Shown here: piece after piece, positions 14,753 through 63,830 of the stretch
Layout of the letters: every line of letters begins with the position of its first letter
Position numbering within the stretch: the first letter of the stretch is position 1
Virus record (IMG/VR): IMGVR_UViG_3300032214_000715
Coordinates: 124,001 to 188,000 of that record
DNA length: 64,000 nt
Strand: one strand, 5' to 3'
DNA from: a virus
Notes under the pieces: model-generated
Told to the model about the DNA's origin: nothing
The model's input: only the letters and a program-made list of their open reading frames with translations
Databases searched by the model: none
Program-made: the position numbers and the translations under genes

Positions 14753-16483
14753 TCAATAGTTCTGTCCTGCTACGAATCCTGACCAACTTGTCCCGCCATC
14801 ATATGTCATTATGGTAATGATATCGTATTTGTTAGCAGTTGCGGTTATTACTGGGGCCACTCCACTTGGCCATTTGATAGACGATGGCCACGCTAGTGAT
14901 CTTTCGCCAATAGCATCTTGTCTAATAATTAGTGCCAAGTAGAAAAGTCTACCACTGACTGGTACATTACTGAAAGTTAGACTGGTAATGTTTGAACTCA
15001 TTGTAATGACAAAATTATTTGACAGTGAACAATCAATATTGGTTGTTGCTGACGCTGTTACATTACTAGTAGACTCAGTATAAGCAGTTCCAAATGCTAA
15101 TGACGATGACAGGGTTACAGCGCTTGAAAATATTGTAGCGTTCGGTACTGTGCCGCCGGCAAAACCACCGCCTGCTACAACATCATCAACATATTTTTTT
15201 GTTGCTGCGTCTGTTTCTTGTGTAGGTGTAGCAAGACTTGTAATACGCTTACTAGAAACATCAACTGTTCCGGTTCCAATTGGCACTAAATTAACATTAG
15301 CATTAGATCCACCAGCAGTAAATGTTAGAGCTTCTGTTCCAGTAATACTACCGGTAGTAGTTCCAGTTCCACCATTTGCTACTACAAGAGTGCCCTCTAG
15401 TGTTATAGTTCCACTACTAGTTATTGGACTGTCTTTTACTGTTAATCCTGTAGTACCACCACTTAGTGCTACACTAGTAACGGTTCCAGTGGCAGCCGAT
15501 ATAGTTGTCCAAGTTGGTGCTCCACCGTTTCCGTTGCTGGTTAATACTTGACCCGTTGTGCCATAATTAGCGCCACTTAGACCCCACGCACCAGAGCTAA
15601 CTATACGCAGTCTCTCTGTTTGTGAACTGCCAGTCGTTACGATTACTGAACCAACTCCATCTGGTCCAACACCGCTCTGTAAATATACATTGCCACCAGT
15701 TCCGCTACCACCTGCTGCCCCCGGTCCCCCTCGTAGATATACATGACCTGGAAGACCTCCAATAATTGGAACTCCGCACGCTCCACCAATAATTAGTATA
15801 CTAGCTCCAGTAGCGGAGCCAGTCGCGGCGGCCGCAGCAGCAATAGTAAAAGTACTATCGGATGCTCCGACGCTAATAGTATTACTGCCATTATAGCTAA
15901 TTTGTGAGGTGGCAGAATACGCATTAGAACTCTTAAATATTAATTGTCCGTTACTTCCAGGAACTGCGGTTAATCCAGTACCACCATTAGCTATAGCTAA
16001 TGTCCCACCCAGAGTCAATGTTCCGGATGATGTTATTGGTCCTCCAGTAAGAGTTAATCCAGTAGTGCCTCCGCTACTGCTAATACTTGTTACTGTTCCA
16101 ACTGCTCCCGGAGCCCACGTTAATCCACTAGTGGAAGCTGAATCTGCCATCAACACTTGTCCATCAATGCCAACAGCTAATCTTATGTTGCTGGTACCAT
16201 TGTTGGCAATAATGTCTCCTTTAGTTGTGGCGGGAGATAACTCATTGAACGCAGCGGTTTTATTATTTTGACTGGTTCCCCCTTGAGCTACTGATAGTGG
16301 AGTTGTTAATCCGCTCAAGCTAGTAATGTCGCTATTAGCTCCGCTTTTCGCCGCTTCTAAATTACTACGAGAAATGCCAATGTCACTGTTCCCAGTGCCA
16401 CCTTGAGCAGTGGAAAGTATTCCTGTTATTTGTGCTGCTTGTATAGATTGTATTTGTGTTGACTGTATTTTATTTTGTGGCAT
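14753..16483 (-). CDS. Tail-fibre protein, GGTG-repeat shaft with GFVAGQNY tip
   Basis: A 576-residue fibre protein. N-terminal residues 1-100 carry AQGGTG motifs and the SGANSDITSLSGLTTPLS unit shared with other fibres. The centre (about 180-330) holds a module with PGHVYLRGGPG, GGNVYLQSGVGPDG and GAWGLSGANYGT that is almost the same in the 410-residue gene at 46061. The last about 130 residues, ending GFVAGQNY, match the tip of the 894-residue gene at 43363. There is no anchor domain; the gene follows the 2,239-residue fibre by eight bases, with its ribosome site (AAGGA) overlapping that gene's stop, so the two may form one fibre as proximal and distal parts. Confidence 0.85.
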   Translation of the reverse strand: MPQNKIQSTQIQSIQAAQITGILSTAQGGTGNSDIGISRSNLEAAKSGANSDITSLSGLTTPLSVAQGGTSQNNKTAAFNELSPATTKGDIIANNGTSNIRLAVGIDGQVLMADSASTSGLTWAPGAVGTVTSISSSGGTTGLTLTGGPITSSGTLTLGGTLAIANGGTGLTAVPGSNGQLIFKSSNAYSATSQISYNGSNTISVGASDSTFTIAAAAAATGSATGASILIIGGACGVPIIGGLPGHVYLRGGPGAAGGSGTGGNVYLQSGVGPDGVGSVIVTTGSSQTERLRIVSSGAWGLSGANYGTTGQVLTSNGNGGAPTWTTISAATGTVTSVALSGGTTGLTVKDSPITSSGTITLEGTLVVANGGTGTTTGSITGTEALTFTAGGSNANVNLVPIGTGTVDVSSKRITSLATPTQETDAATKKYVDDVVAGGGFAGGTVPNATIFSSAVTLSSSLAFGTAYTESTSNVTASATTNIDCSLSNNFVITMSSNITSLTFSNVPVSGRLFYLALIIRQDAIGERSLAWPSSIKWPSGVAPVITATANKYDIITIMTYDGGTSWSGFVAGQNY

Positions 16484-16491
16484 GTTCTTCC

Positions 16492-19400
16492 TTATACAAA
16501 GCTATATATTGTAATTTCGTCACTCGCTTGTAGTTCTTGATTAAAGGTTATTTCTTTTGTTCCAGTAACCATATAGGACTTAGTAGCTCCCTCTCGTTGT
16601 AATACACCATTTATGAAAACTTGAATATACACAGTGTCGTCGGTTTTTGCTACTGTTTTTACCGTAGTTGTTATCACTATTTGTCCAGCAGTAGCAGTTA
16701 TTTCTTGATATTTAGGCCCTGCTGATTTCCACTGTGGTGCTGCTCCTGTACCACTTGAAGTTAATACTTGACCAGCAGTACCTGATTGACCCTGAATATC
16801 CCACTGTCCACTGGAGTGTATTTTTAATTGACTATCAAAACCAGGAATATTGTCGTTAGTAAACGTTACTTCCTCGTCTTTTTGATAGTTTACTGTTTGC
16901 AAGTCTATTGATTTGCTTTTTATTACTAGATCAGTAGCATTATTACTTTCTATTGAATTTTCAATATCATCAAAAACTTTTTGATAACGAATACTTGAAA
17001 TGATAGTAGCTTCTTTAGTGGGCTGAATTTGTACGGAATACTCGTTATTCATTAGAATTTCGTTACCGTTATCATCGGGCTCTAGTCTGGTGTGTATTAC
17101 TTCTAAAGACGCTCTTGGATTTGAGTTATTACCAATCCAACCCTGATTTCCGGCTATTCTAAGTCCACCGTGAGGAAGAAAGTTATATTGATTTAAAAAT
17201 CGCAGTTCTTCTACATTTAATCTTTCAAGTTTACCAACCTGTTGAAGAGAACTGTGAGTTATCGTGCTTGGCAATGTAGATCCTACAAGCCCTCCAAGAT
17301 TTACACTTGGGAATTTCCAAAGAGCCGGCGTGTCAGCGCCACCGCTAGTAAGAACCATTCCTTCGGTCCCATATTCGCCGTTTATTCCTATTTTTCCGGA
17401 ATTATCTATTTCAACTATTTCTATTAGAGGGCTTGCTGGATCCTTTGCTGTTCTAAATATAATATTTCCGCCAGATCCAAGAGCTGAAGTGCCACCGTCA
17501 ATATAAACATTCCCACCAGTAGATTCTTCTCCCGACGCAGAACCTGCTTTTAAGAATATATCTGCTCCAAATCTATTTGAAAGATTACTCGCGCCTGATT
17601 GTAGTACTAAACTTACTGGCCCCGGTACATTGACTGATGTTTGCGTGATGGAAGTTCCATCAACGTTTGATGCTCCAAAAATAGTAAAGAAGTTGTTGTC
17701 GTCTTCATCACTCCAGGCACTACCTAATCTTAGAGCAGACTGAGCTACGTAGTTAATATCAGTGATTCCATCTATTACCCCATCTTTATTAAATAATAGA
17801 TTTTTATTTACACCCCGTGATATAACGGTAGTTGGATATATCCATTCTGCTGTTGAGCCGTCACTGACTAGGGATTTACCAGCAGTGCTACTGTCTTGAG
17901 TTGGTAGAAGTTTCTTAATTCCCGCTTCTGCCGTCGTCGCTCCTGTGCCACCGTGTTCTATTTTTAGAGTTCCCCCAAGCGTAAACGTTCCTCTATCAGT
18001 TATTGGTCCACCGAGCGTTGTAAGTCCTGTTGTCCCTCCACTCATCTCAACTGAGTTTACTGTTCCAACTACTCCGCCGGTAATTACACTAATAACCCCG
18101 TTATCGTCAGTTCTAGTAGTTATTCCGTCTGGCTTTACAAGTCCCAATCTACCTTCAGTAGCAGTTGGAACTAAACTATCACCTGATAGACTGGCCCAAA
18201 AAGCATTTGTTCCGTTACTTGCTAAAACATAGTTTTCTGCTAGCTCTTGATCTGGTAATAGATTAGTTAAAGCATCTACTTTGTTGGTTGCCGCTGTACC
18301 ACCGTACTCTATAGATAGAGTACCCCAATATGGAGTTGTATCCCCTCCGGCAGATAATAGAGGCTGTCCTGGCAATCCTATTTTTGGATCGCCTCCACCC
18401 TCTGAGTCCTGACCCATTTCTCCCAACTGCCACGCGCCAGTATTCCAGATGGTAAAGACTCTCTTAGCGTCTTCATATTTAGCGGTTTTAAATATTATCT
18501 GTCCGCCCTCTTGTTTATATGGGTTATTATTAGGGTCAAGTTCAGAACTTATATATCCCTCCCCGGCCTCAATATAAATATCTGCGCCTGGGCTCGATGG
18601 AGAAAAACCACCAGGAGATGGGGCGCCTGCGACCCCATCTCCCGCTTTTATAAATATGCTTCCAATCCCGATATCTTCAGGCTCCCACGTAGGTCTTTCA
18701 CGCCCACTGGCGTGACCTCCAACAATTGATATTGTTCCGGTGTGGTATCCATATCCCGGTCGTGAGCCTGAGTTAGATGTGTATATTCTAAGATTAGTCC
18801 ATGACTCGCTCGTAATTCCGAACTCATGCGTTACAGAATCGGTATTTCTAAAACGATCACCGAGTACTAAAGCACTATTGGGCACATATATGCGCGGGTC
18901 CAGTGATGGTTCATAACCGTTGTGTATATATTTAACTGTTCTAGCGTACTGTGTTTTTCGTGCGCCCCCGTCGGCATATATAAAAGAATTATAATCCTCT
19001 TGCTCTAGAGTATCAAGACTCAATGCTCTGGCACTAATTTGATCAGTGGCCGGGTCAATATACATAGAGTTAGAGTTCAAAGCAACTATACCCGGCTGAA
19101 TATAGTTAGCTATCGGTACAGGAGCACTTTCCCAAAAAAGATCGTATCCATTCCACAGCTCAGGTGTCGTCTCTTCATATGGTACATATCGATACTGTAG
19201 ATAATATGAATTACCGTCATTCGGGTGAGGTGGGAGCAAATTCCTTATATCAGTGCTTAATGTGCCATCATGTGCTACTTGTATTGTTGTTCCATCTGGT
19301 TTTACTACCCCAAGTCTATTAGTAGTGGCTATTTCTAACCCAGATGCCTGCACTGGCGCCCAACCAAGTTGTATTTTGCCGGAGTTATAATTGTATGTTA

Positions 19401-22400
19401 GATATTCACCGTGGCCTGACGTGGTGTTGCCCACCGGAAAAATTCCACCAATATCTACTTTTATTATTCCTTCTGTTTCAGTAATAATGGTTTCGCCGTC
19501 TAATCTAACTCCACCCAATTTACCTTCGGATCCAACTCCCGCTCTTGGAATGAATGCTTCCATCTCTGCCCAAAAAAGACTACCACCAGTGGTGCTTAAG
19601 ACTTTACCTTGATTTCCTTCTTGATTTGGAAAAAATTCATTGTAAAATAAATCACCGAAAAATTCATTGTTAAAGCCTAATTGCCCGTGAATATCCAGTA
19701 GTAGATGCTCTTGATTTATTTTAATGACACCAGGTCGTGAGGCCGCTCCGTATGTAGCTAGTGGAAGTTCTTCCCATCTAAGTGTTCCGGATTTTGTACC
19801 TTCTTCGGTAGAAACGCCGAATCCGTCAGTAGTTAAAAAGTGAAAATTTTTTCCTGATTGATCGGGAATTATTTGATTTCCAACATTTATAGTGTTTACC
19901 TTAATCATTCCACGACCCTCAGGGTCACGAAGAGTGTCATGATCAATCTCTGCTACTTTTGCCCTTAATGAAATACCCAATCCTGCCGGATGCCCGACCA
20001 GTTGTAGACCTCCGTATTGAACATCTCCTACCGGTGGGTGAATCAAAACCATTCCGCGTTTGCTATAACTAGCTATCATAGAATCCCACTTTGGAGATTG
20101 ACTTGTTCCTCTAGATATTAGTATATGATTTTGTTCACCAGTGTCAGTTTCTATCTTGTTAAAAGCCCAAGACCCCGACGAGTTTATTCTAAAAACTTCT
20201 TCCGACGGTTCCCCAGTACTAAAACTTATAAAGCCAGAATCTGCTAGTCCAAATCCACGACCTCCAGTTAAGTACAGATTCCCTGCCGGGGGAATAGTTA
20301 AACCCTCAATAGCGAATGAATCGCCGCCTTTTATTTCTACTGATGATCCTCCGTTAGTAATAGATTTTGCTTCTTGTCCTACTATTAAAAATAATTCGGA
20401 TAAGCCACTTCCGACTGTTAATTCTCCTCGACCGTCATATGATATGCGACTGGTACCACCTAAAAATCCTTCGTTATTGTACTGAAGCTGTCCGTTTAAT
20501 CCAACGGCGCCGGGCTTTGCTGTATCCCATCGTATGTTAGTGCCGTTTGTAGTAAGAACGAAATCTTTTTTGCCAGCTTGAGGAGGTAGAAATGAGTTTA
20601 TGGCAGCAGATGGGTCCGATGTTCCAGTTCCACCCTGTTCTATGCTTAATGGAGTTGTTAAACCACTAAGACTTGTGATATCACTATTTGCTCCGCTCTT
20701 TGCCGCCACCAAATTTATTCTGGCACTATCTGCTGTTGTCCCACCGGTGCCCCCAGCAAGAACAGGCAACACATCAGCCATTAATGTAAGCGCACTAGTA
20801 CTAAACAGTGCTCTATTTGGACCAATCAGAGTTGATAATCCAGTGCCGCCTTGATTTACACTAAGCGGTGTCGTCAGTCCACTCAAGCTAGTGATGTCGC
20901 TGTTATCACCACTTTTTGCTACTTCTAAATTAGCGCGAGCGCCCTCTGGTGTTTTACTACCAGTACCACCCTGATTTACACTAAGCGGAGTTGTTAGACC
21001 ACTTAAGCTAGTGATGTCACTGTTATCTCCGCTTTTTGCTGCGCCTAAGTTTGCCCTTGCGCCTGTCGGCGTTTTACTACCAGTGCCGCCTTGATCAACG
21101 CTAAGCGGTGTCGTCAGTCCACTCAAGCTAGTGATGTCACTGTTATCTCCGCTTTTTGCTGCTCCTAAGTTTGTTCTTGCGACAGAGGGCGTAGAAGCGT
21201 TGGTTCCTCCCTGCGCGATAGTAAGAGGAGTAGTCAGTGCTGATAATCTTGTAATATCATTGTTTACTCCACTCTTAGCCACTTCTAATTCTATTCTAGC
21301 TAGTGCTGGAGTTGACGCATTAGTTCCGCCCTGCGCCACACTAAGTGGAGTTGTTAATCCACTTAAGCTAGTAATGTCACTGTTATCACCACTTTTTGCT
21401 GCTTTCAAGGACTCTCTGGCTTCAGCCGCGTTTGTTGATCCAGTGCCGCCATTATTAACAGATAATACTCCGCCAAGAGTTATGATCCCGATTCCACCAT
21501 TTGCTCCCGTTACTGGTCCGCCAGTGGTAGTTAACCCAGTTGTGCCACCGTTAACATTTACGCTTTTTACAGAGGTCGCTAGTGGCTCTACCCAAGATAA
21601 TATTCCCCCGCCATCGGTAGTAAGAACTTTATTTTCGTTGCCAGTTTGATCGGGCAACATAGCAGTAATAGTTGAACTTAGATTATCGTAACCAGTGCCG
21701 CCAAATTGCGGTGATAGCACTTGAGTCAATCCAGAACTTTTTCCAGAAATGTCACCCGTTATACTTGCTCCACTTATAGCTGCTATAGTTGATAGTGCGT
21801 TCCCGTCGGATACAACAAATCCAGAGTCAAAACTGGTTCTTCCAGTTCCGCCCTTTGATATCGGCACAGTATTTAAACTAAGAGTAATAGTTCCTGATCT
21901 TGTTATTGGGTTAGTGCCTCCTACAGTTAAATCAGTAGAGGTTATGGTGACTGAATTTACTGAACCATACTGTGGAATATTAAGAACGTTATTATCAAAC
22001 GTAGCAGCACCACTGGTGCCAACAGTCTGTAGCGTGACTACACCCTGATACACGGGAATATTTAATACATTGTTCGTGAATGTAGCTGATCCTGTTACAT
22101 CATTCGTGGTTAAACTTACAGGCAGTTGATAATCAATATTGGGTTCCGCAGTTTGTAGACCGCCATTAACTCCCTTAGTTATTCCATTGATGTATGTGCC
22201 AATTGTTATGCTAGGGTAAGTACTTGCGGAAGACACTTCTCCAGTAAATCCATTGGATGAGTTAACCGAAACTGATTTAACTGTGCCTACTATACCGTCG
22301 GTAGTAACACTTATTCGTCCGGTTTGATTGACTACTATAGTACTATTGTCAACAGTGACTGAACCCAGTACCGACATAGTTGCTACTCTAGAGCTTACTG

Positions 22401-23211
22401 TTACTGCTCCAGTAGATGATGATAAACTAATGCCGGGACCAGCACTTAGCGACATTACCCAATTATTTTTAGTACTCAGTATTCCACTATCGTCTATATT
22501 TAACCCGTCTCCAATGATGACTCCACCCAAGCGACTGGTTGTTGAAGTTGGAAGTGTATAGGATATTACACCATCAACGCTTATTGCTATAGTAGTACCA
22601 TCAACTTTAACTCCACCCAGTGTATTTGATCCAGCTATTGGTAACACATAAGGTATAGCAGATAGTTTCCCTTCAGAATCAATAACAAGTCCTGCGCCTG
22701 TTTTGACTCCTCCCAACTCATTATTGTTTGCTATTGGCAATGTATATTGCTGAGCACTAATTATGCCGTCTTCAGTTATTGTTATTGTGCTGTTATCAAT
22801 CTTTACTCCACCAACGCTGCCACCACTAGCAATTGGTAGAGAATATGATCCAGCGCTTAGCACTCCATCACTGTCTATTGTTAGATTGTCTCCGATCTTG
22901 ACTCCACCTAGTGTATTGGCAGAGGCTGGACGAAGTATATAAGCGTCTCCAGTAGTGCTTGAAATTTCTCCAGTTATCGGATCTACTACTATAGTAGTGC
23001 CATCAACTTTAACTCCGCCCAACGTGCTAGCACTTGCTACAGGCAACTGATAGGGAGTGCCAGTGCCGACAAATATGCCGCCGACTGTTTTTCCATCGCC
23101 GACTCTAATAGAGTTAGTTATCGGGTCGTACCATAAGCGACCCTCTTGCCCTATTTTTTCTTCTGCCGACTGTGAATTTCTACTGGTAAAAAAATCCTGA
23201 GTGTAAGACAC
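16492..23211 (-). CDS. Giant tail-fibre protein, 2,239 aa
   Basis: The largest gene in the window. Residues 1-50 look like a small anchor domain (EGRLWYDPITNSIRVGDG) of the Mtd-N style. Residues about 55-235 are six tandem units of about 35 residues built on LGGVKxDGTTI. Residues about 595-800 hold five exact-length 40-residue units built on SGLTTPLSVxQGGTG. The rest alternates GGTG hinges, LLPDQxGNxxKVLTTDG blocks and modules with IKGGDSF or FIKAGDGVAGAPSPGG. The C-terminal 60 residues (TATAGQIVITTTVKTVAK ...) form a separate small tip. Such fibres are trimeric beta-rich rods. No protease or chaperone domain is visible. It is the first gene of a two-gene late unit. Confidence 0.88.
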   Translation of the reverse strand: MSYTQDFFTSRNSQSAEEKIGQEGRLWYDPITNSIRVGDGKTVGGIFVGTGTPYQLPVASASTLGGVKVDGTTIVVDPITGEISSTTGDAYILRPASANTLGGVKIGDNLTIDSDGVLSAGSYSLPIASGGSVGGVKIDNSTITITEDGIISAQQYTLPIANNNELGGVKTGAGLVIDSEGKLSAIPYVLPIAGSNTLGGVKVDGTTIAISVDGVISYTLPTSTTSRLGGVIIGDGLNIDDSGILSTKNNWVMSLSAGPGISLSSSTGAVTVSSRVATMSVLGSVTVDNSTIVVNQTGRISVTTDGIVGTVKSVSVNSSNGFTGEVSSASTYPSITIGTYINGITKGVNGGLQTAEPNIDYQLPVSLTTNDVTGSATFTNNVLNIPVYQGVVTLQTVGTSGAATFDNNVLNIPQYGSVNSVTITSTDLTVGGTNPITRSGTITLSLNTVPISKGGTGRTSFDSGFVVSDGNALSTIAAISGASITGDISGKSSGLTQVLSPQFGGTGYDNLSSTITAMLPDQTGNENKVLTTDGGGILSWVEPLATSVKSVNVNGGTTGLTTTGGPVTGANGGIGIITLGGVLSVNNGGTGSTNAAEARESLKAAKSGDNSDITSLSGLTTPLSVAQGGTNASTPALARIELEVAKSGVNNDITRLSALTTPLTIAQGGTNASTPSVARTNLGAAKSGDNSDITSLSGLTTPLSVDQGGTGSKTPTGARANLGAAKSGDNSDITSLSGLTTPLSVNQGGTGSKTPEGARANLEVAKSGDNSDITSLSGLTTPLSVNQGGTGLSTLIGPNRALFSTSALTLMADVLPVLAGGTGGTTADSARINLVAAKSGANSDITSLSGLTTPLSIEQGGTGTSDPSAAINSFLPPQAGKKDFVLTTNGTNIRWDTAKPGAVGLNGQLQYNNEGFLGGTSRISYDGRGELTVGSGLSELFLIVGQEAKSITNGGSSVEIKGGDSFAIEGLTIPPAGNLYLTGGRGFGLADSGFISFSTGEPSEEVFRINSSGSWAFNKIETDTGEQNHILISRGTSQSPKWDSMIASYSKRGMVLIHPPVGDVQYGGLQLVGHPAGLGISLRAKVAEIDHDTLRDPEGRGMIKVNTINVGNQIIPDQSGKNFHFLTTDGFGVSTEEGTKSGTLRWEELPLATYGAASRPGVIKINQEHLLLDIHGQLGFNNEFFGDLFYNEFFPNQEGNQGKVLSTTGGSLFWAEMEAFIPRAGVGSEGKLGGVRLDGETIITETEGIIKVDIGGIFPVGNTTSGHGEYLTYNYNSGKIQLGWAPVQASGLEIATTNRLGVVKPDGTTIQVAHDGTLSTDIRNLLPPHPNDGNSYYLQYRYVPYEETTPELWNGYDLFWESAPVPIANYIQPGIVALNSNSMYIDPATDQISARALSLDTLEQEDYNSFIYADGGARKTQYARTVKYIHNGYEPSLDPRIYVPNSALVLGDRFRNTDSVTHEFGITSESWTNLRIYTSNSGSRPGYGYHTGTISIVGGHASGRERPTWEPEDIGIGSIFIKAGDGVAGAPSPGGFSPSSPGADIYIEAGEGYISSELDPNNNPYKQEGGQIIFKTAKYEDAKRVFTIWNTGAWQLGEMGQDSEGGGDPKIGLPGQPLLSAGGDTTPYWGTLSIEYGGTAATNKVDALTNLLPDQELAENYVLASNGTNAFWASLSGDSLVPTATEGRLGLVKPDGITTRTDDNGVISVITGGVVGTVNSVEMSGGTTGLTTLGGPITDRGTFTLGGTLKIEHGGTGATTAEAGIKKLLPTQDSSTAGKSLVSDGSTAEWIYPTTVISRGVNKNLLFNKDGVIDGITDINYVAQSALRLGSAWSDEDDNNFFTIFGASNVDGTSITQTSVNVPGPVSLVLQSGASNLSNRFGADIFLKAGSASGEESTGGNVYIDGGTSALGSGGNIIFRTAKDPASPLIEIVEIDNSGKIGINGEYGTEGMVLTSGGADTPALWKFPSVNLGGLVGSTLPSTITHSSLQQVGKLERLNVEELRFLNQYNFLPHGGLRIAGNQGWIGNNSNPRASLEVIHTRLEPDDNGNEILMNNEYSVQIQPTKEATIISSIRYQKVFDDIENSIESNNATDLVIKSKSIDLQTVNYQKDEEVTFTNDNIPGFDSQLKIHSSGQWDIQGQSGTAGQVLTSSGTGAAPQWKSAGPKYQEITATAGQIVITTTVKTVAKTDDTVYIQVFINGVLQREGATKSYMVTGTKEITFNQELQASDEITIYSFV
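20821..21420 (-). repeat. Tandem direct repeat, 5 x 120 bp, in frame
   Basis: Five consecutive units of exactly 120 bp (anchors at 20879, 20999, 21119, 21239, 21359) encode 40-residue SGDNSDITSLSGLTTPLS-type repeats. Units 1-3 and 5 are nearly identical in DNA; unit 4 is diverged. In-frame gain or loss of units would change shaft length by a fixed step. Confidence 0.85.
22480..23060 (-). repeat. Tandem protein repeat of about 35 residues (LGGVKxDGTTI), six units
   Basis: Six degenerate units LPxASxxxLGGVKxDGTTIxIxxDGxIS follow the anchor domain of the giant fibre. The same unit recurs in the 1,975-residue, 1,066-residue and 1,058-residue fibres. Confidence 0.75.
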
Positions 23212-23234
23212 TTGATATCCTTAATGTTTAGTAG

Positions 23235-23242
23235 TATTTATT
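23235..23242 (-). promoter_or_regulatory. T4-type late promoter box AATAAATA
   Basis: GAATAAATACTACTAAAC on the minus strand in the 52-base gap before the giant fibre gene; ribosome site AAGGA follows. Confidence 0.65.
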
Positions 23243-23263
23243 CTTACTGTGTCAGTAAAGATA

Positions 23264-54372: not shown

Positions 54373-57300
54373 GATATACTCACATATGTTGTTCCAGGCT
54401 GTAAGGTTATTCCATACAGCGTGTATCCTTCAGCAACATATCCTGCTGGCGGCGTAGTTGGTTGTAAACTAACAGTGTTTCCAGTTGTCACGCTTACATC
54501 AGATAACAACGACGATGTTGGACCAGTTTTGAATGATGTTGGCTGACTAGCACTAGTGCGAACGGCGAACCAAAATGCTCTTGGAGTGCTTTCAGTATTG
54601 TTTACATTCCCGGCAAATACTTTAACTTGACTTCCAAGCGCGGTGACTCCCGCGGCAAAAGCAGTTTCGTTTACTATGTTAGAAGCTGTTGGTGGAACAC
54701 TTGTAGCTGTAGTAAATAGCCAGAAACTAGGGTATGTAAATGTAGCACTGGCGCTAGCGGTAGTAGCACTTAGATTTGCCGTGTACGAAGTTCCAGTGAC
54801 GCTTGCTGGTCGTGTAAATGTGGTAGAAACACTTACAGTTCTTGTTGTCGCCGTGTTATTTTTGTGTATAGGATCAGTAAATGTAAATGTTCCACTTGCT
54901 GTAGCACTACTTGTAGTACCACCCACTGCTGTAACACTATTAGCATAATTTGAAGTACTTGACATTCCAGTTACAGTAACTGTATATGCCACTGAATTGT
55001 AACTCTGTAAGAATGTGTTGCCAGTTAAACTGGAAAGTGCTACTCCAAGAGTAGGTGTCGCCCAGTTTACTGATATACTAGCCGTAGAGGTCATGTACTC
55101 AGCGGTACTAGTTCCATTATAGAAATTGAATGCTATTGTCCCAGCGGCATTTCCACCTGCTATTGTAGTACTTGTTGGTCTGATAAATGAATCGGCGTCT
55201 GTAGTAAACGTCTGAGTCCAATCTACAGTTCCTGCTGGAGTGGCAGATTGTACTCCAGCACTAAATGTATTCAATGCGCTTATTGAACCGCTTGTAGCAG
55301 TTATACTTCTAACGGCGGAAATATATTGATCAGTAATGTCATCTGGATTTACAACACTTACAGCAAATGATGTAATTGGTTGATCCCAGCTTGGAGATGC
55401 GGGAGATATAGTAGCACTGATTGTTGGTGTAAATGTGGCCAGTGTTAAACGAAGCTTGTTTCCAAAGAATTCAGCCACGCGAACTGGTGATGTGGACCCA
55501 TTCTCTTGGTATCCAGTAAGAGTTCTATAAGAGCCACTAGTAGTAAATACCAGCGGGCCAGATTGCTCAGATATACTAGTCCAACTAACATTTCCAGCAC
55601 CGTCTGTACTCAATACTTGTCCACTGGTTCCTCCACCAATGCTTATATTGTCTGTGCTTTCAAATGCTACTTTATCGGCAGTGGCAGTTACACCAGAAAC
55701 GCCGGCAAAAGACCCATTGTTGTTATATTGTAGCTGCCCGTCAGTTCCACCAGGAATTCCAGCCGCGTCATCAACTGGAATCCACTTATCCATTACTGAG
55801 TTATAACCCAGTAACTGTCCATCGGTTGGTGGAACTGTAGTCAAGTCAACATTAACTAAATCATCAAGACTTCCAGTTGTAGCTACTGTGGCAAAATCTG
55901 GCTTGTCGGTGATGTTATTCCACGTTAGTGAAGTTGTTGTAATGTATCCAGCGGCGTTCCCAAAGATACCAACATCTGGAACGGTGCCGTTAAGATTTTC
56001 CCAAGTGAAGTTTGATTGAGTTACATACTGCGCGTCGTTCGTGAATTCACTTACGTTTGTTGGGCGATTAATTACGTTTTCCCACGTTATATCAGTTTTT
56101 AACGCATAATTTATATCGTTTTGAAAGTAACTAAGACCAGTTGGAGTACCGCTAATAGAACTCCATGCTAATTCTGAAAATTTTACAAATCCAACATCAT
56201 TTGTAAAGTCACTTACTTTAGTTGGAGCATTAGTCAAGTCTGTGTAGTTTCCACCGAATGGAGCTGCTACACTTATAGTTCCATCCTCGGCGACTGTAAC
56301 GTTATCACCTATCTTAACTCCACCCAAAATAGTGCTAGTTGCTACCGCTATTGGGGTAGTATTTGACCAAGATACGTCACTACCGTCAGTAATTAAAACT
56401 TTGTTTGCGTTTCCGTTCTGACTTGGTAATAGCGCTGCTCGTGCTGCCGCTGGGGTTTCTGCTCCTGTGCCGCCGCTCTCTACTGGTAGTACGCCGCTAA
56501 ATCCAACTGTTATGTTTCCAGTTGATCCAGTAATTGATATGTTTTGTCCAGCAGTAGCAGATAAAACTCCGGTATTGCTGATAGTATTTTCTACTATACT
56601 GATTCCGTTGCCAGCAATGTAGTTACCTACGGATCCAAACTGAGACCACTCTATAGCACTTGTTCCCAGAGATATAGTTCCGGGAGTAATCATAATCCAT
56701 TGAGTGCCAGCTAATGTAGTTCCATTCTGTATAAATGTGAAATCACCAGCAGACACTTCACCAGCAAAGCTGTTATCAAAATCAGTGGCTCGCATCAGTA
56801 CCCAATTTGGGTTATTAGCTGATAGCACATATATGCCGTTTTGTTTCTTGTCGGTTTGATTCTTAAGTAAGATTCTATCGCCAACTATTAATGTGTGACC
56901 ATCTAGTTGTGTAAGTTGTCCTACGCCAGTTAGGGTTGCTCCTATACCGTTTGATCCATTGTTATAAGTTCCGTTTAGATTAGCGGTAGAAGCAACCGCA
57001 CAAGCAAGGTGTACGTTAAGACCACTAGCTAAATTATCTACGTATTGTTTTGTGGCAGCATCTAACGCACTTACTGGGTCCGCGTGTAGCGTTAGTGTGC
57101 CCTGCATAGTGTCGCCGGCTCGATTTACAGGAGTATATCCAAGACCACTGATTACATCAGACCCGCTGAACGCTTTCCAAACTATATTAGTTCCATCAGT
57201 TGATAGTACTCGACCAGAAAATGATGCCTGCGACGGCAATAAATTATTAATAGCATCAGTTGGATTACTTGCCCCAGTACCGCCGTTAAATACTCCTAAA

Positions 57301-57569
57301 GTTCCGCCTACTGTAAATGTGCCAGAAGTCGTTATTGGGTTTCCGTCTCCAGTAGTAAAGGTTAGTCCGGTACCACCCGGATCAATATTTACAGACTTTA
57401 CCGAACCAAAATCAGGGTTAGCGTTAAAATATTTAATAGTAGAGGTGCCGTCTTTATAAAACAGACGACCGTCAGCATAGTTAATCGCAATTTCACCAAA
57501 CGATAAGTCAGATATTAATGGACTTGTTCCAGTCGTACCCGAATTTTTAATAATAATCGTTGTTGCCAT
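54369..57569 (-). CDS. Large tail-fibre protein with Mtd-N-like anchor, 1,066 aa
   Basis: Anchor (1-50) with SDLSFGEIAINYADGRLFYK. GGTG hinge, then the conserved module HADPVSALDAATKQYVDNLA ... GDRILLKNQTDKKQNGIYVL (about 165-330) shared with two other giant fibres. Then LGGVKIGDN, tandem TNDVGF / TWENV units and DGQLQYNNNGSF blocks. From about 680 onward comes an Ser/Thr-rich part with at least three Ig-like repeats, and the tip (TPRAFWFAVRTSASQPTSFK ... GYTLYGITLQPG), which I recall from cyanophage fibres. The second gene of a three-gene late unit. Confidence 0.9.
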   Translation of the reverse strand: MATTIIIKNSGTTGTSPLISDLSFGEIAINYADGRLFYKDGTSTIKYFNANPDFGSVKSVNIDPGGTGLTFTTGDGNPITTSGTFTVGGTLGVFNGGTGASNPTDAINNLLPSQASFSGRVLSTDGTNIVWKAFSGSDVISGLGYTPVNRAGDTMQGTLTLHADPVSALDAATKQYVDNLASGLNVHLACAVASTANLNGTYNNGSNGIGATLTGVGQLTQLDGHTLIVGDRILLKNQTDKKQNGIYVLSANNPNWVLMRATDFDNSFAGEVSAGDFTFIQNGTTLAGTQWIMITPGTISLGTSAIEWSQFGSVGNYIAGNGISIVENTISNTGVLSATAGQNISITGSTGNITVGFSGVLPVESGGTGAETPAAARAALLPSQNGNANKVLITDGSDVSWSNTTPIAVATSTILGGVKIGDNVTVAEDGTISVAAPFGGNYTDLTNAPTKVSDFTNDVGFVKFSELAWSSISGTPTGLSYFQNDINYALKTDITWENVINRPTNVSEFTNDAQYVTQSNFTWENLNGTVPDVGIFGNAAGYITTTSLTWNNITDKPDFATVATTGSLDDLVNVDLTTVPPTDGQLLGYNSVMDKWIPVDDAAGIPGGTDGQLQYNNNGSFAGVSGVTATADKVAFESTDNISIGGGTSGQVLSTDGAGNVSWTSISEQSGPLVFTTSGSYRTLTGYQENGSTSPVRVAEFFGNKLRLTLATFTPTISATISPASPSWDQPITSFAVSVVNPDDITDQYISAVRSITATSGSISALNTFSAGVQSATPAGTVDWTQTFTTDADSFIRPTSTTIAGGNAAGTIAFNFYNGTSTAEYMTSTASISVNWATPTLGVALSSLTGNTFLQSYNSVAYTVTVTGMSSTSNYANSVTAVGGTTSSATASGTFTFTDPIHKNNTATTRTVSVSTTFTRPASVTGTSYTANLSATTASASATFTYPSFWLFTTATSVPPTASNIVNETAFAAGVTALGSQVKVFAGNVNNTESTPRAFWFAVRTSASQPTSFKTGPTSSLLSDVSVTTGNTVSLQPTTPPAGYVAEGYTLYGITLQPGTTYVSIS

Positions 57570-57583
57570 TTATTTTTCCTTGT

Positions 57584-58552
57584 TTAACCGAAACTTCCGC
57601 CGTTTATTATGCCTACTAAATTGTCAACGTAATACTTGTTAACTAGATCGTTATCAGCTAGACCTTGTGAGTACAGTTGAGCAGTGGGGCCTTGTACTGT
57701 AACTTTATTAGCATTATTGTTGGGTAGTATCATTGTAGTGTCTCCTGACTGAGACTCCAAAAATAAATTAGATGTTCTGGCGCGCAGTGTTAGAGTTTCA
57801 CCTGAATTAGTCTGTATTACTGAATTTCCAGTTCCAGTTACAACTACACTTCCACTTCCATTTGGTAACAACACTAGATCAGAATTAGTTGCCGTGGCAG
57901 AAATACTTGAGTTGGCACCGTTTATTACAACTGGATAAGCTGATCCAACGCTCAGTGTGCTTTGTGTGTTATCAAAACTAAGTTTATCCGATTGAGCTAC
58001 TGCGTCTGTGCCGTTTCCGTACAGTATTTGATTTGGCATTAACTCAGTGAGTCCAGTACCGCCGCTACTTACTGGTACTGTATCAAGTGATATAGTAAGC
58101 GTGTCGCCGTTTAACTCAACCGTAATCGGGCTATCGCCAGTAGTAGTTACTGTTTTTCCAACAACCTTCCAGGCAGCTCCGTCATAGTATTCCGCTACAG
58201 GGCTGGATCCGCTAGTGTTAATTCTCAACATTCCAACTGTCGGGGACTCTGGTCGTTCTTCAGTAGTACCAACTGGTATACTTACGGCTGAGGTTCCATC
58301 AAATTTAACGACACCCTGTTGTTGTAAACTAACTGTAGTTCCAGCAAAGCTTAATTTCCCAGTGTCGGAAGATATATTTACGTCGGTGTCTAATGCGGTA
58401 ATAGACGAAGCCACCATTGGAATATGGGTGGATTCGTTTGTTGCTCTTACGCTAAAGGAATTAGTAATTACATCGTAATAAACTACGCCGCCATTTTTCC
58501 CGTACTGTACCGAGTTTGATGTTCCTGCTAATCCGTAATTTTTTGTAACCAT
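57584..58552 (-). CDS. Tail-fibre protein, 322 aa
   Basis: Starts MVTKNYGLAGTSNSVQYGK with YYDVITNSFSVRATNES, probably an anchor of the same general type as in the giant 2,239-residue fibre. A short shaft with LSFAGTTVSLQQQG, GMLRINTSGSSPVAEYYDGA (common fibre-shaft block) and TVPVSSGGTGLTELMPNQIL. The C-terminal part (MILPNNNANKVTVQGPTA ... LADNDLVNKYYVDNLVG) is related to the end of the 588-residue fibre, and it closes with IINGGSFG. First gene of the unit that continues with the 1,066- and 153-residue genes; late promoter with exact TATAAATA upstream. Confidence 0.88.
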   Translation of the reverse strand: MVTKNYGLAGTSNSVQYGKNGGVVYYDVITNSFSVRATNESTHIPMVASSITALDTDVNISSDTGKLSFAGTTVSLQQQGVVKFDGTSAVSIPVGTTEERPESPTVGMLRINTSGSSPVAEYYDGAAWKVVGKTVTTTGDSPITVELNGDTLTISLDTVPVSSGGTGLTELMPNQILYGNGTDAVAQSDKLSFDNTQSTLSVGSAYPVVINGANSSISATATNSDLVLLPNGSGSVVVTGTGNSVIQTNSGETLTLRARTSNLFLESQSGDTTMILPNNNANKVTVQGPTAQLYSQGLADNDLVNKYYVDNLVGIINGGSFG

Positions 58553-58571
58553 ATTTAATTCCTAACTTAAA

Positions 58572-58579
58572 TATTTATA
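58572..58579 (-). promoter_or_regulatory. T4 late promoter box TATAAATA (exact consensus)
   Basis: GATATAAATATTTAAG on the minus strand, after a short ATCATCA/TGATGAT hairpin (58585-58611 region) at the end of the 680-residue gene. Confidence 0.75.
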
Positions 58580-58591
58580 TCACGATCATCA

Positions 58592-60634
58592 TCAAACATA
58601 TGTGATGATTATAGTGGCCGCACCTTGAGTTGATCCACCATCATTAAAAGTACCAGTTACTGTTACATCTCCATCAACATTAACTCCTGGTGTGCCACCA
58701 ACTCCAAATTTAAGCCCAGTATCAGCGGTGTATATACCAACGGCATTTAAGTTGTTTAGATTTATCGCCATTAGTCCATTGATGGAAGTCACTGGAGTTT
58801 CTGAATTATTGATTAAGTAACCAAGCGCAAGTGTGGCCAATCCGTTAAATGGAACAGACACATTTACTGCTACCGATGCTATTCTGCGACCAGTTGTTAG
58901 TGTTCCAATATTAAATTCAAGCGGAGAATTATTGGTTAATGTGTAGGATAGTGTCTTGCTGTCTACACTTGCTGAACTTTGTCTAGCAATTAAGACCCAA
59001 TCAGATCCGTCCCACAACCAATTACTCCATTGATTTACATAATTATTATTTCCATCATTGCTGTCAATTACATAGGCTTGATCTCCTATTAATGGAGTAA
59101 GTGAGTCTCTGAAGGCCAAGTCAGTTACTACCATTGCGCCTGCTTGACGCACTCCGCCCTGTATATAAAGACCAGCGGCCTTTGTTCCATTTTCAACACT
59201 TACTAAACCAAAGTCTAGAGTGACACTTCCCTGTACATCTAAGAAATTAATTGCTCTGGCATCAATGGCAGTAAATTTGACAATATTCTGTGTAGATGCT
59301 GAAGTACTTAACGAGATACCAGATCCTGAGTTTGGTCCAGCAAAGGGAACACCATTGGTATCACTGTTAACATTACTAATAGTAATTATTCCGCCGCTGT
59401 CATTAATAATTTTCAATCCTGTTCCAGAGTTTATTACCTCGGCAGATATATTGGGTATGTTCGCATTGTTAATATCCTTTGCCATTTGCGTTGGTAGTGA
59501 GTAATCTTCGTATCCAGGAACAGATGATCTGCTAGAAAACGTCACCAATACTCCATTTATGCTGGCGCTGACCGGATTAGAGGCGGCGAATAGCGCAGGC
59601 TCACCATAGATTGTTGATATATTAGATGATATCGTTTGCGCCGATGATGGACTTAAACTTAGCTCCGCATTTACTCCAGTGTCTTCAGTCGCCGAGTTAA
59701 TAGCAGATACTAAATCCTCTGCGGACCCAGTTCCACCAACAGTGATATTTACTGAATTCAGAGAAATTATACTTCCAGAAGTTGTCGGGCCAGTAGAAGT
59801 CCCAGACACCTTAGATACGGTCTGATTTCTTAATTTAATGTAGATAGGAGACCCGGCTGAATCCAACGATAGTTCCCCTGGAACATCAGTTGAACTGTAT
59901 ATTTGATCGCCTACGTCACCTGGAAGAGAGTCTAGAAAATCAACTATCTTGTTGATGGGATTTATAGTAAACCATCCAGGGATAGCATCAGACACAGACG
60001 TTACTCGTCCAATTACAATTTTATAAAATTCATCGGCTAATACATATCTATGTGTTTCGTTATCTACGGCTATGACATCATTGATAGCAAACGTATTGTC
60101 TGCTTGATATAGTGCGTAATCGTACTGTAGATTATTGTACGTAAATCTACTAATTAAATTTTGAGTGAAGTTAGAAGAAATTCCTGATGGGGGAACTGGG
60201 TCTATTTGCGGTATTCCGTCTCCACTTAGATTAAAAATGACATATACACCGAGACTTAGACCACCATTTCCAACTTGAGAGGTATCTCTAAAGGTATTGT
60301 ATCTATAAATATCCTGAACAGTGGCAACTACGCTATTTGCTGATTTGGACTCTATGGATATTATTTGCCACGCTTGCCCAGTAGTGGCGTTGGCAATCCA
60401 CTGCCCTATAGTTACATCATATCCATTATACAATCCGGGATTTCTAGTCAGATAAGAGCTTTGATTTTGAGATGCCACTGACATCTCAATTTTCCAGCGA
60501 TATGCTTTTGCCGACGGCGCTGGAGAGCCCGTAGATGGGAAATTTAAAGGATTGTACCAGGGTAAAAACTCTGTGCCCAATACGCTAGTAACGTTAGCCT
60601 CTAATGTTTTTACGGGTTTATTTAAAAATGACAT
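58592..60634 (-). CDS. Tail-fibre / baseplate-associated structural protein with flagellar-hook-like motifs, 680 aa
   Basis: Unlike the other fibres it lacks GGTG hinges. Residues 1-250 include NPLNFPSTGSPAPSAKAYRW, a Tyr/Trp-rich domain with YNGYDVTIGQWIANATTG and repeated SNSVVATVQD type beta strands. Residues about 275-400 contain two units that resemble the flagellin/FliD hook-IN motif (ISLNSVNITVGGTGSAEDLV then SAINSATEDTGVNAEL, and GVLVTFSSRSS ... MAKDINNANIPNISAEVI). A short block DVQGSVTLDFG then RQAGAMVVTDLAFRDSLTP and the end with TSINGLMAINLNNLNAVGI. Baseplate connection is a guess from its different architecture. It follows the 1,058-residue gene with a 19-base gap. Confidence 0.78.
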   Translation of the reverse strand: MSFLNKPVKTLEANVTSVLGTEFLPWYNPLNFPSTGSPAPSAKAYRWKIEMSVASQNQSSYLTRNPGLYNGYDVTIGQWIANATTGQAWQIISIESKSANSVVATVQDIYRYNTFRDTSQVGNGGLSLGVYVIFNLSGDGIPQIDPVPPSGISSNFTQNLISRFTYNNLQYDYALYQADNTFAINDVIAVDNETHRYVLADEFYKIVIGRVTSVSDAIPGWFTINPINKIVDFLDSLPGDVGDQIYSSTDVPGELSLDSAGSPIYIKLRNQTVSKVSGTSTGPTTSGSIISLNSVNITVGGTGSAEDLVSAINSATEDTGVNAELSLSPSSAQTISSNISTIYGEPALFAASNPVSASINGVLVTFSSRSSVPGYEDYSLPTQMAKDINNANIPNISAEVINSGTGLKIINDSGGIITISNVNSDTNGVPFAGPNSGSGISLSTSASTQNIVKFTAIDARAINFLDVQGSVTLDFGLVSVENGTKAAGLYIQGGVRQAGAMVVTDLAFRDSLTPLIGDQAYVIDSNDGNNNYVNQWSNWLWDGSDWVLIARQSSASVDSKTLSYTLTNNSPLEFNIGTLTTGRRIASVAVNVSVPFNGLATLALGYLINNSETPVTSINGLMAINLNNLNAVGIYTADTGLKFGVGGTPGVNVDGDVTVTGTFNDGGSTQGAATIIITYV

Positions 60635-60653
60635 TTATCTGCCCTCGGATGCG

Positions 60654-63600
60654 TTAGAATCCAAATACAACGACCAAATGCGCTCGTTGTCCTAAACCTG
60701 CGGATGCTCCAGCATCACTCATTCTAGTTTGTAGAGTTATTGTGCTATTAAATACACTAGAGGCAATATTAGAGACGAACGCCGGATTTGCTAAGTCAGT
60801 TCCTCCGTCCAAGCTGGCTTGACCTAAACTAGTAATATCTCTTACGGCAAATCTCTGTGCGCTACCGTTAGCGGCACAAATTTGTCCGTACACAGTTATT
60901 GACTTTGGAGGATTAGTTTTTCCTGTAAATGCGTAATTTACGATTGCGTTTGCTCCATCCGAAATAGTAGCTGATACTCCAGATGTTTGAGATACCTTTG
61001 AATCGGAGCCAGATAAATTTCCACCGCTTCCAGTGGTGTATTTAAATACTACTATTTCTGGAGAACTAGTTCCGCCACCTCCGCCACCTGAACTAGCAAT
61101 AGTAATAGTATTAGCGTCAGTTCTAGTAATCGTAACATTAGATCCAGCAGCTAAAGTAACATTATCGGTAGAAGAATCGCTACCTGTAAGTCTTAAATTA
61201 GCACCGCCTGTTACTGTTTCTGCACTAATACTATAGGTTGTTCCTGCGCCACCGCCACCTGAATATTGTGGAATGTTCAATGTGCCATTTGTAAACGTAG
61301 CAGCCCCGCTAGTTCCAGTTGTTGTTAGAGTAATTGGTGCTTGATAATCTGTTCCAGCGGAAGCAGCTACAAACCCACTTCCGTTTCCTTTTAATAGACC
61401 GTTTAGTGTAGTAGTTACCGCTAGTGTTCCAGATGCTGTTACTGGACTTCCGGTTACCGTAAATCCAGTTGGCATTGTCAGTCCTACACTTGTTACTGTT
61501 CCAGAACCACCTCCACTTCCACCAGAAGCAGCAATAGTAATTTCGTTAGCTGCGGATCCCGTACCTTTAGTTAAAGTAACATTAGTTCCAGCTACTAGCG
61601 TAACAGATGTAGTTCCAGTTCCACTTCCTCCGGCAGTTAATGTAATATTTTTCTTTGTAGCTTGTCCAGATACATCTGCTGCGCTTATGCTGTATGTAGT
61701 ATCTGTGTTTGCTACTACATCAGTAAGCTTTGCTATGGCATTCCAAGCTCCGCCCTGAGCAAAGTAGGGTCTTGTATCAGCATTACTAACTGCTAGAGCG
61801 CCTTGATAAGTAGTGGCATTAGGAAAAGCAGCTTGATTTGTAAAATAGAAAGGAATAACACTGCCCACCGCCGGAGCTGTAATTAGTCCAGTGTCGGAAA
61901 TTGTTACTAAGCTGTTTTGAATTAGCTTGCCTGTGTTGGAGTCAAATCTAGCAATAGCGTTGTCAGTAGCGGACGCTGGTCCAACTACATCTCCGCTTCC
62001 TCCTCCGCTAGAAACAGTTGCCCATTCTAGACCGCTAGCTGCGGAATTCACACGCAATACTTGAAGAGCAGTTCCTATACTTGTTAAACCTGTGCCGCCG
62101 GCGGTTGTTGGAACAGTAGACTGTGTAAATCCAAGTGTTACAGCACCATTAGTTGTGGAAGCAGTAACTCCACCGCCACCAGTTACACTTAGTACTCCAG
62201 TATTAGCAATAGCATTGTTAGTTATTGATATACCAGTGCCGGCGGTCAATGAATTGGGTCCACCAAACTGCGTGAATACAATGTTTGTAGTCCCGAGAGT
62301 TATTGTGCCCGAGGTAGTCATTACCCACTGAGTGGTGGCAAGTGTTCCTTCACCAACGAAAAATGCGTCTCCGGAATTAATATTTGATGAACTATTAAAA
62401 TCACTTACTCTAGTCAACACAAACGGATTTAACGTAGTAAGCTCATACATACCATTTTGCGTTTGTGTTGTCTGATTTTTAACTAATATACGATCACCTA
62501 GCGATAAAGTTACTCCATTTATTGACCCTAATGATCCAGATCCAGTTAACGTAGCTCCAGTTCCTGCTGTACCATTGTTGTATGTAGCAGTGATATTAGA
62601 TGCAGTAGCGGTACGAGCTGACTCTTTTACTACTAATCCAGACGCTAAATTGTCCACGTATTGTTTAGTTGCGGCGTGAAGAGCAGTTGTGGGATTGCCA
62701 CTAAGAGACAGCGCTCCAGTCATAGTACCGCCAGCAAGAGGAACAAATCCGACAGCACTGATAACGTCATTGTCAATAGTAATAGTTGTGCCGTCTACTT
62801 TTACTCCACCGCGGACCGTAGTAGACGCTGCTGGTAAAGTGTAACTACTACCCCCAGTAGAATCGGTGCCGTTTACCCAATTAGTACCATTATACTTTAG
62901 CACTTCTCCAGTGGTTGGAGTGGTAATAACTACGTCCGTTAGATCATCTAAATTAGTGGCGCCACCACCGCCACCACCACTCACAGCGCTTATTATTCCG
63001 TCTTCTATGGTAATTGTTGTTCCGTCTATCTTTACTAAACCCAAGACATTTACTGAAGCAGTGGGTATAGCTGCGTATTCTAGTGCGGTTCCAAGAGAGT
63101 TTACTTTTAGATAGCTGTTTGCTTCACCCTTAGAACTTAAACCAGTTCCGCCGTTATCGATGTCTAATGTTCCCGCTAGAGTAAATGTACCAGAGCTGGT
63201 TATAGGATTTTCAGAGGAAGAACTAACGGTTAGTCCAGTATTGCCAGTAGAAAAACCAATACTAGTTACAGTTCCAGTACCAGATGTGTTACCCCAGCTT
63301 AACTTGCCAGACCCGTCTGTAATCAACACTTGTCCAGTAGATCCGCCGCCTATGCTAAGTTTGTTTACATCGGTAAATGTGGCGCCCTGAGCTACTTCTA
63401 TGGAATCAACTGATAGTATCTTGGTATTGGGATTGAAGGAAAATGAGCTTACTCCGTCCAAATCACCGCCGTTGTTAAACTGAACTTGATAGTTAGAACC
63501 ACCGGGCTCATCGACATACACAAATTGCTGTACAGTGCTTTGATCTATTCCGGTAACGTATATATCTTTGTCCGTGTTTATAACACTAACGGCATCTGCG

Positions 63601-63830
63601 CCGGCAAACAATAGCGTATTGTTGGTGGCGTTGTTAAATGTTATTCTGCCATCAGTTAAAGAAGGTTGACGAGAAACTGATGTAATAGAACTTGAAGTAG
63701 TATTTCCAATAGCATCTACTTGTGTTATATTTGTTGCTATCGGTGGACCACTTAGGGCTGTTGATACAGTCTGCGCTACTACAGGATCGTCTCCTGAAAT
63801 TATCGTTGCTGAGGGTGTTTTGATTGCCAT
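60654..63830 (-). CDS. Large tail-fibre protein, 1,058 aa
   Basis: N-terminal about 130 residues (MAIKTPSATIISGDDPVVA ...) are unique and may attach the fibre. Then the GSNYQVQFNNGGDLDG and SGNTGLTVSSSSENPI blocks, GGTG and LGLVKIDGTTI units, the conserved HAATKQYVDNLASGL ... FFVGEGTLATTQWVM module (about 390-550), and several SAAxVSGQATKKNITLTAGG units. The C-terminal about 110 residues (SSPEIVVFKYTTGSGG ... GQRAHLVVVFGF) form a separate tip domain. First gene of the whole fibre block and of a two-gene unit with the 680-residue protein; ribosome site GGAAA. Confidence 0.88.
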   Translation of the reverse strand: MAIKTPSATIISGDDPVVAQTVSTALSGPPIATNITQVDAIGNTTSSSITSVSRQPSLTDGRITFNNATNNTLLFAGADAVSVINTDKDIYVTGIDQSTVQQFVYVDEPGGSNYQVQFNNGGDLDGVSSFSFNPNTKILSVDSIEVAQGATFTDVNKLSIGGGSTGQVLITDGSGKLSWGNTSGTGTVTSIGFSTGNTGLTVSSSSENPITSSGTFTLAGTLDIDNGGTGLSSKGEANSYLKVNSLGTALEYAAIPTASVNVLGLVKIDGTTITIEDGIISAVSGGGGGGATNLDDLTDVVITTPTTGEVLKYNGTNWVNGTDSTGGSSYTLPAASTTVRGGVKVDGTTITIDNDVISAVGFVPLAGGTMTGALSLSGNPTTALHAATKQYVDNLASGLVVKESARTATASNITATYNNGTAGTGATLTGSGSLGSINGVTLSLGDRILVKNQTTQTQNGMYELTTLNPFVLTRVSDFNSSSNINSGDAFFVGEGTLATTQWVMTTSGTITLGTTNIVFTQFGGPNSLTAGTGISITNNAIANTGVLSVTGGGGVTASTTNGAVTLGFTQSTVPTTAGGTGLTSIGTALQVLRVNSAASGLEWATVSSGGGSGDVVGPASATDNAIARFDSNTGKLIQNSLVTISDTGLITAPAVGSVIPFYFTNQAAFPNATTYQGALAVSNADTRPYFAQGGAWNAIAKLTDVVANTDTTYSISAADVSGQATKKNITLTAGGSGTGTTSVTLVAGTNVTLTKGTGSAANEITIAASGGSGGGSGTVTSVGLTMPTGFTVTGSPVTASGTLAVTTTLNGLLKGNGSGFVAASAGTDYQAPITLTTTGTSGAATFTNGTLNIPQYSGGGGAGTTYSISAETVTGGANLRLTGSDSSTDNVTLAAGSNVTITRTDANTITIASSGGGGGGTSSPEIVVFKYTTGSGGNLSGSDSKVSQTSGVSATISDGANAIVNYAFTGKTNPPKSITVYGQICAANGSAQRFAVRDITSLGQASLDGGTDLANPAFVSNIASSVFNSTITLQTRMSDAGASAGLGQRAHLVVVFGF

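Follow-up and report, generated by a model that had tools for sequence, protein, structure and literature searches.

A 17-gene tail-fibre and adhesin locus whose products may be linked as segments of jointed fibres

Introduction

The host range of a phage is determined mainly by its fibre genes, yet for genomes recovered from the environment the connections between individual fibre proteins are seldom known. How the products of a very large fibre gene array fit together is the question raised by the locus at positions 14753-63830 of the window studied here, a stretch of 64,000 nucleotides (nt) that corresponds to contig positions 124001-188000 of a 239,163-bp IMG/VR virus record (IMGVR_UViG_3300032214_000715). 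Positions are those of the window unless marked as contig positions, and the genes are numbered from g1 (14753-16483) up to g17 (60654-63830), with transcription running from g17 to g1. An earlier note on this DNA had counted at least six proteins with an anchor-like N-terminus and concluded that several different fibres are likely carried on one virion or chosen between. We consider it probable that the genes of the locus belong to a PA5oct-like jumbo myophage and code for its tail-fibre and adhesin apparatus, and that several of their products are segments of jointed fibres linked by docking between a short C-terminal tag on one protein and an Mtd_N-like domain at the N-terminus of the next, a reading that draws on sequence comparison and on analogy with T4.

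Results

A short tag at the C-terminus of fibre proteins

Five block proteins end in the form [hydrophobic]-D/N-x-G-x-Y/F-COOH or a close variant of it. These putative docking tags are LDGGVY in g11 (50078-50095), LDGGTY in g12 (51973-51990), LDGGAF in g13 (53914-53931), INGGSFG in g15 (57587-57607) and the variant LDMGTF in g8 (46064-46081), all encoded, like every gene of the block, on the minus strand. In the related contig IMGVR_UViG_3300042914_002334 (G025) the same genes, listed in the same order, end in IDGGEY, LDGGTY, LDAGNYT, INGGTFG and LDMGSF, and the ends are kept even where the preceding sequence has diverged. Among the loci fetched with g11 and g13, [DN]GGx[YF] stood at the C-terminus in 51 of 1,104 open reading frame (ORF) ends, compared with 0.19 expected from its internal frequency, and the reversed motif was found at none of these 1,104 C-termini. 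Similarly, IDGGTY followed by a stop codon occurred in at least 120 stretches of the viral collection as opposed to one for the permuted control IGDGTY. Among the matches listed, all 121 proteins of at least 60 amino acids (aa) ending in IDGGTY were fibre-like in composition, and the sequences preceding the tag belonged to 15 unrelated C-terminal families. The C-terminal tag is real. A literature search on the tag strings returned nothing on phage fibres. In three of the loci examined, tagged genes were located at the end of an array and followed by non-fibre genes.

The domain encoded downstream of the tag

Mtd_N-like N-terminal domains were detected in g14 (57396-57569, hidden Markov model (HMM) match at 3.2e-17), g12 (53626-53796, 4.7e-16), g11 (51674-51841, 2.2e-15), g9 (48140-48316) and g7 (45880-46047). 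Only some of these N-termini reach the Pfam family Mtd_N (PF18454) itself: g7 passes the curated cut-off (9e-14), g12 alone gives no match, and 11 of 22 sampled N-termini matched. Direct profile comparison of four N-termini with BPP-1 Mtd was unsuccessful; an HMM built from 238 N-termini did match this protein.

Within the window, four of the five tagged genes directly precede a gene with this domain (g15 before g14, g13 before g12, g12 before g11 and g8 before g7), compared with one of 11 untagged genes (p 0.013). The association extends to other phages and is directional, with an Mtd_N-like start in 67 of the 111 genes directly after a tagged gene and in 3 of the 93 directly before one. When 3,640 unique adjacent pairs were analyzed, restricted to those with a fibre-like first gene, the next gene carried the domain for 133 of 183 tagged and 76 of 1,046 untagged genes. 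The contrast was also present in loci that had not been fetched by the tag (44/50 tagged versus 39/752 untagged) and when only one case per junction cluster was counted (7/16 versus 10/506, p 9e-8).

Matching protein ends in T4-like phages

A search with the N-terminal consensus returned 1,095 phage records, with many of the matches located at the N-terminus of T4-type gp37, the distal subunit of the long tail fibre. When the same HMM was applied to the gp37 N-termini of nine T4-like phages, each matched at 2e-10 or better; gp36, encoded directly upstream, ended in D-[FY]-G-x-[YF] in all nine, sometimes with one additional residue. In T4 itself, gp36 and gp37 are joined end to end, the C-terminus of the former binding the N-terminus of the latter (PMC9603124; PMC3004832). 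For BPP-1 Mtd, attachment to the tail fibre is presumed to take place through the N-terminal beta-prism (PMC10743442). Vibrio phage 1.208.B encodes a chain of three genes, in which a protein ending in IDGGAF is followed by one that starts with Mtd_N and ends in IDGGSF, which in turn is followed by another Mtd_N protein.

T4 fibre proteins also require the chaperones gp57 and gp38 (PMC5537660). The tag could therefore be imagined as a recognition site for an assembly chaperone, or as an element that closes the trimer, with the neighbouring Mtd_N domain reflecting shared gene order only; tagged proteins whose next gene lacks Mtd_N would fit this explanation. We regard it as improbable, since the pairing is directional, survives the one-per-cluster count and is found again precisely where gp36 and gp37 are known to join.

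Several observations weigh against docking between tag and Mtd_N-like domain. The pairing is incomplete in the block itself, where g11 is tagged and g10 lacks the domain, while g9 has the domain and g10 lacks the tag. Behind one family of short tagged proteins of 66-84 aa, found in at least four other loci, the next gene belongs to another family and not to Mtd_N. Three Mtd_N cases in cyanophages have no tagged upstream neighbour, the fold search with g13 yielded a low-confidence model without matches, and the first Mtd_N HMM was built from eleven seeds, five of which came from loci containing the tag. This seed bias is small and cannot explain the contrast between tagged and untagged genes. 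The pairing pattern of G025 is identical to that of the block, exceptions included, and the short tagged proteins may have a second kind of tag partner. Tag and Mtd_N were not found fused inside a single ORF.

Anchors, joints and switching

The earlier note read the N-termini as anchors of several independent fibres. In its strict form, each Mtd_N-like N-terminus would attach to the virion and six or more fibres would be displayed together. Several distinct N-termini do exist in the block, the cyanophage cases point in the same direction, and in phiKp24 a single virion bears fourteen putative tail fibres, for which a model of branched docking has been proposed (PMC9700779). However, in T4 gp37 and BPP-1 Mtd the partner to which a domain of this type attaches is a second fibre protein (PMC9603124; PMC10743442). 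Since four of the five Mtd_N genes follow a tagged gene, the more likely role of their products is that of distal segments in jointed fibres. We give the display of six or more independent fibres little chance, and the step from anchor-like N-termini to many fibres is probably wrong, as these N-termini would represent joint domains of the T4 gp37 type.

Nor did the suggestion that fibres are chosen between find support. A switch between adhesins, brought about by a diversity-generating retroelement or by DNA inversion, might be expected from the name of Mtd_N, which derives from a retroelement-diversified protein, and from the duplications in the block: g11 and g12 share 633 nt at 80% identity, and g1, g7 and g8 are partly duplicates of one another. 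Yet the contig contains no reverse transcriptase, no long inverted repeats flanking the genes were found, the genes are tightly packed on one strand, and a second contig is identical over the block. Switching of this kind is very improbable. As the searches for a switching element were negative, simultaneous production of the block proteins is probable.

A second pairing between g14 and g13

A further pairing connects the C-terminal domain of g14 (residues 641-1066, 54372-55649) with the N-terminal domain of g13. In relatives of g13, this N-terminal domain heads proteins mostly 200-1,400 aa in size, and throughout the relatives fetched it is directly preceded by the g14 C-terminal domain. The g13 protein of the block consists of the N-terminal domain alone and the tag. 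One other locus contains a single ORF of 974 aa in which the g13 domain is followed by a g12-like body and Mtd_N is not matched internally; this single case is what would be expected of a tag and Mtd_N pair that takes the place of a covalent link. The C-terminal domain of g14 was predicted by AlphaFold2 as tandem beta-sandwiches with high confidence (pLDDT 90.5). In a fold search, adhesins and proteins with immunoglobulin-type folds in the PDB were matched only weakly, as were unnamed phage proteins.

Extent and content of the locus

The 17 consecutive ORFs of 153-2,239 aa that the earlier note had described, with almost no gaps, are all present. They fill 14753-63830 with 862 nt of intergenic sequence in total, distributed over 16 gaps of -4 to 142 nt each, and occupy about a fifth of the genome (49 of 239 kb). 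The block is not cut by the window edge, as a glycosyltransferase-like gene (contig 187973-188866) is located upstream and MoxR and VWA-like genes downstream. Additional fibre-like genes were found outside the block at contig 195421-197268, 201288-202460, 202485-207119, 236277-237617, 237694-238890 and 100498-107034, so that 17 is a minimum for this genome. Among these, the gene at contig 202485 has an Mtd_N domain at its N-terminus, and the product of the gene at contig 237694 has the look of a LamG protein.

Pfam and PHROGs assigned only fibre, lectin, PKD, Mtd_N, tail-fibre, baseplate and head-decoration families to the block, in agreement with the view that no gene of another function intervenes. 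Pfam recognized 19 LamG lectin domains (seven in g3, three in g4, eight in g6 and one in g10), three PKD domains in g10 and Mtd_N in g7, and most of the remaining genes matched tail-fibre, baseplate or head-decoration families in PHROGs. No match in either database was obtained for g13, and g16 had no PHROG match and a marginal Pfam match only; phage homologues exist for both. A composition score trained on the block separated its proteins well from those of the remaining contig genes. A recognized depolymerase domain of the pectate-lyase type was not detected by Pfam in any of the 17 proteins. The T4 late-promoter motif TATAAATA was uninformative, with 6 matches compared with 7 expected.

The head-decoration matches, observed in g11, g12, g14 and g17, together with Pfam head-fibre matches in g2 (weak) and in the gene at contig 202485, raise the possibility that head fibres, decorations or whiskers, and not tail fibres, are the products of a substantial part of the block. 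These matches cover repeat modules, however, and g1, g2, g7 and g9 match tail-fibre families; we consider a head location for a substantial part of the block unlikely, although less so than the other alternatives discussed above.

Conservation and variation of the block

Throughout the block, the second contig (G001) shows 100% identity, which confirms the assembly but gives no reading of strain variation. G025 is more informative, being colinear from ClpA via the glycosyltransferase-like gene and from g17 to g5, where that contig ends. Its homologous fibre genes are 45-73% identical to those of the block, compared with 83% for ClpA and the clamp loader. At the position of g10 (L342:5860-6990), the PKD-LamG adhesin is replaced by an unrelated protein of 376 aa without a family match, while g11 is tagged in both genomes; by eye only, the 376-aa protein appears beta-helix-like. 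Its g5 is enlarged to 3,518 aa, and the C-terminal end of its g7 matches g1. The latter finding and the 633 nt shared by g11 and g12 indicate that modules move between genes. Judged from these comparisons, the block is a conserved, fast-evolving adhesion locus and no one-off pile-up. Contigs related through the neighbourhood of the glycosyltransferase-like gene were rejected as proof of this conservation, since mostly non-fibre genes follow that gene in all except one contig and part of another. For g16, relatives in IMG/VR were limited to the duplicate contig.

Relationship to PA5oct

Among isolates, the closest matches to the sheath and terminase were Pseudomonas phages of the PA5oct group (Arenbergviridae), Sinorhizobium phage Phosso and Agrobacterium phage Atu_ph07. 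PA5oct gp189, gp188, gp178, gp186 (ClpA) and gp185 match the contig genes at 194411, 193875, 193406, 190346 and 189116, respectively; gp186 is 39% identical to the ClpA of the contig over 722 aa, and the counterparts of gp189, gp188, gp178 and gp185 lie on the same side. Counterparts of the block follow ClpA in PA5oct as well, with gp181 corresponding to g16 (33% identity over 687 aa, E 1e-98), gp179 resembling g15, gp182 weakly similar to g17 and gp175 similar to the LamG adhesins. Most products of this region, including gp181, gp179 and gp175, are annotated in the PA5oct record with electrospray ionization tandem mass spectrometry (ESI-MS/MS). The counterparts are labelled both "tail" and "structural", labels that do not decide their place in the virion. 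With a colinear block in G025 that diverges faster than its surroundings and has exchanged an adhesin, and with virion proteins produced from the PA5oct counterpart, the view of the locus as a dedicated and expanded host-recognition system held up, and we infer that its products are likewise present in the virion of this phage.

Gene order in the block

The first gene, g17, encodes a fibre protein of 1,058 aa with an orthologue in G025 that is 50% identical, and is followed by g16 (58592-60634, 680 aa), predicted to be a virion protein of the block core, and g15 (57584-58552, 322 aa). The candidate segments begin with g14 (54369-57569, 1,066 aa), in which a shaft connects the Mtd_N-like N-terminus with the conserved C-terminal domain, and continue with the truncated g13 (53911-54372, 153 aa), g12 (51970-53796, 608 aa, 73% identical to its G025 counterpart) and its paralogue g11 (50075-51841, 588 aa, 65% identity over 446 aa). 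Next in order are the adhesin g10 (48459-49958, 499 aa), g9 (47327-48316, 329 aa), the repeat shaft g8 (46061-47293, 410 aa) and g7 (43363-46047, 894 aa), which combines its Mtd_N domain with a shaft and a C-terminal tail-fibre domain common to g1. The remainder of the block comprises the adhesin g6 (38032-43308, 1,758 aa), the repeat-shaft fibre g5 (32039-37966, 1,975 aa), g4 (29498-31978, 826 aa), g3 (23264-29488, 2,074 aa), with a glycine-rich C-terminal region, a second repeat-shaft fibre g2 (16492-23211, 2,239 aa) and the shaft protein g1 (576 aa).

Neighbouring and other contig genes

The glycosyltransferase-like protein encoded directly upstream of the block (297 aa, L009:2973-3866) belongs to PHROG 1574 and is 51-56% identical among the relatives fetched, mostly near ClpA. 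Its profile weakly matches PDB 2c0n (E 0.0027), which we take to be a viral GT-A glycosyltransferase. Glycosylation of the fibres by this protein is possible; the same gene also occurs beside non-fibre genes. Elsewhere, many short ORFs at contig ~73-88 kb read as spurious translations of tRNA genes (e.g. GGIRTH, DSNRH), which suggests a tRNA cluster, and genes resembling GIY-YIG homing endonucleases were noted, from reading of the sequence only, at contig 29650, 56475, 61713, 86722 and 131398.

Discussion

In the arrangement we propose, the apparatus is composed of repeat shafts, adhesin modules with lectin or PKD domains and a conserved core, all encoded in close packing on one strand, and the tag of one gene product would dock with the Mtd_N-like N-terminus of the product of the next gene in the manner of gp36 and gp37. 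The tag and Mtd_N joints would give g15-g14, g13-g12-g11 and g8-g7, and the pairing between the g14 C-terminal and g13 N-terminal domains would extend the clearest chain to g15-g14-g13-g12-g11. Distal parts such as g10 would be swappable while the joints are kept. Lectin proteins without joints (g3, g4 and g6) and the shafts g2 and g5 may constitute separate fibres or tips. Most likely, the operon makes several jointed fibres and, as docked segments would form chains, fewer fibres than there are genes.

Beyond this phage, we lean towards the view that the tag and the Mtd_N/gp37-type domain form a general, reusable joint across T4-like, PA5oct-like, cyanophage-like and Zobellviridae phages, whose connections can be read from gene adjacency and end sequences and whose several uses here would build unusually long chains. 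If this is true, connections in hundreds of fibre arrays of uncultured phages could be predicted from sequence, and the gp36-gp37 joint, known for decades, would gain a short sequence determinant. A common inference would also be corrected, in that many such N-termini would not be virion anchors and counting them would overestimate the number of fibres. As an illustration of expanded adhesion machinery in a jumbo phage, the locus is a strong case.

The locus shares with BPP-1 Mtd an N-terminus of the Mtd_N-like type, which there belongs to the distal end of the tail fibre, with a putative tail-fibre gene located just upstream. A retroelement is absent here, and the BPP-1 protein encoded upstream of Mtd ends in DLGGIA, which fits the tag only loosely. 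Klebsiella phage phiKp24 is likewise a jumbo myophage whose fibre genes are very numerous, yet its depolymerase beta-helices differ from the LamG lectin domains, PKD domains and repeat shafts found here. The likeness to the gp36-gp37 pair of T4, for which the binding itself is known, lies in the adjacency of the genes, an upstream end of the form D-x-G-x-Y/F and a downstream start with the same N-terminal domain. Each fibre of T4-like phages has a single joint of this type, whereas here it is proposed for four gene borders and in tandem. Counterparts of gp34 and gp35 were absent from the PHROG and Pfam scans of the block, and it is therefore not filed as a T4 long tail fibre.

The most extensive similarity is that to the gp185-gp174 block of PA5oct, which also adjoins DnaJ-ClpA genes and contains orthologues of g16 and of the gene at contig 189116, in addition to proteins similar to g15, g17 and the LamG adhesins. 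The PA5oct block spans ~20.6 kb and is followed by DNA polymerase genes, compared with 49 kb and 17 genes here, and its fibre proteins lack the Mtd_N and tag pairs that would join the segments of this phage. Gene content and order support the reading of the locus as a large version of a known PA5oct-type block with a role in host recognition.

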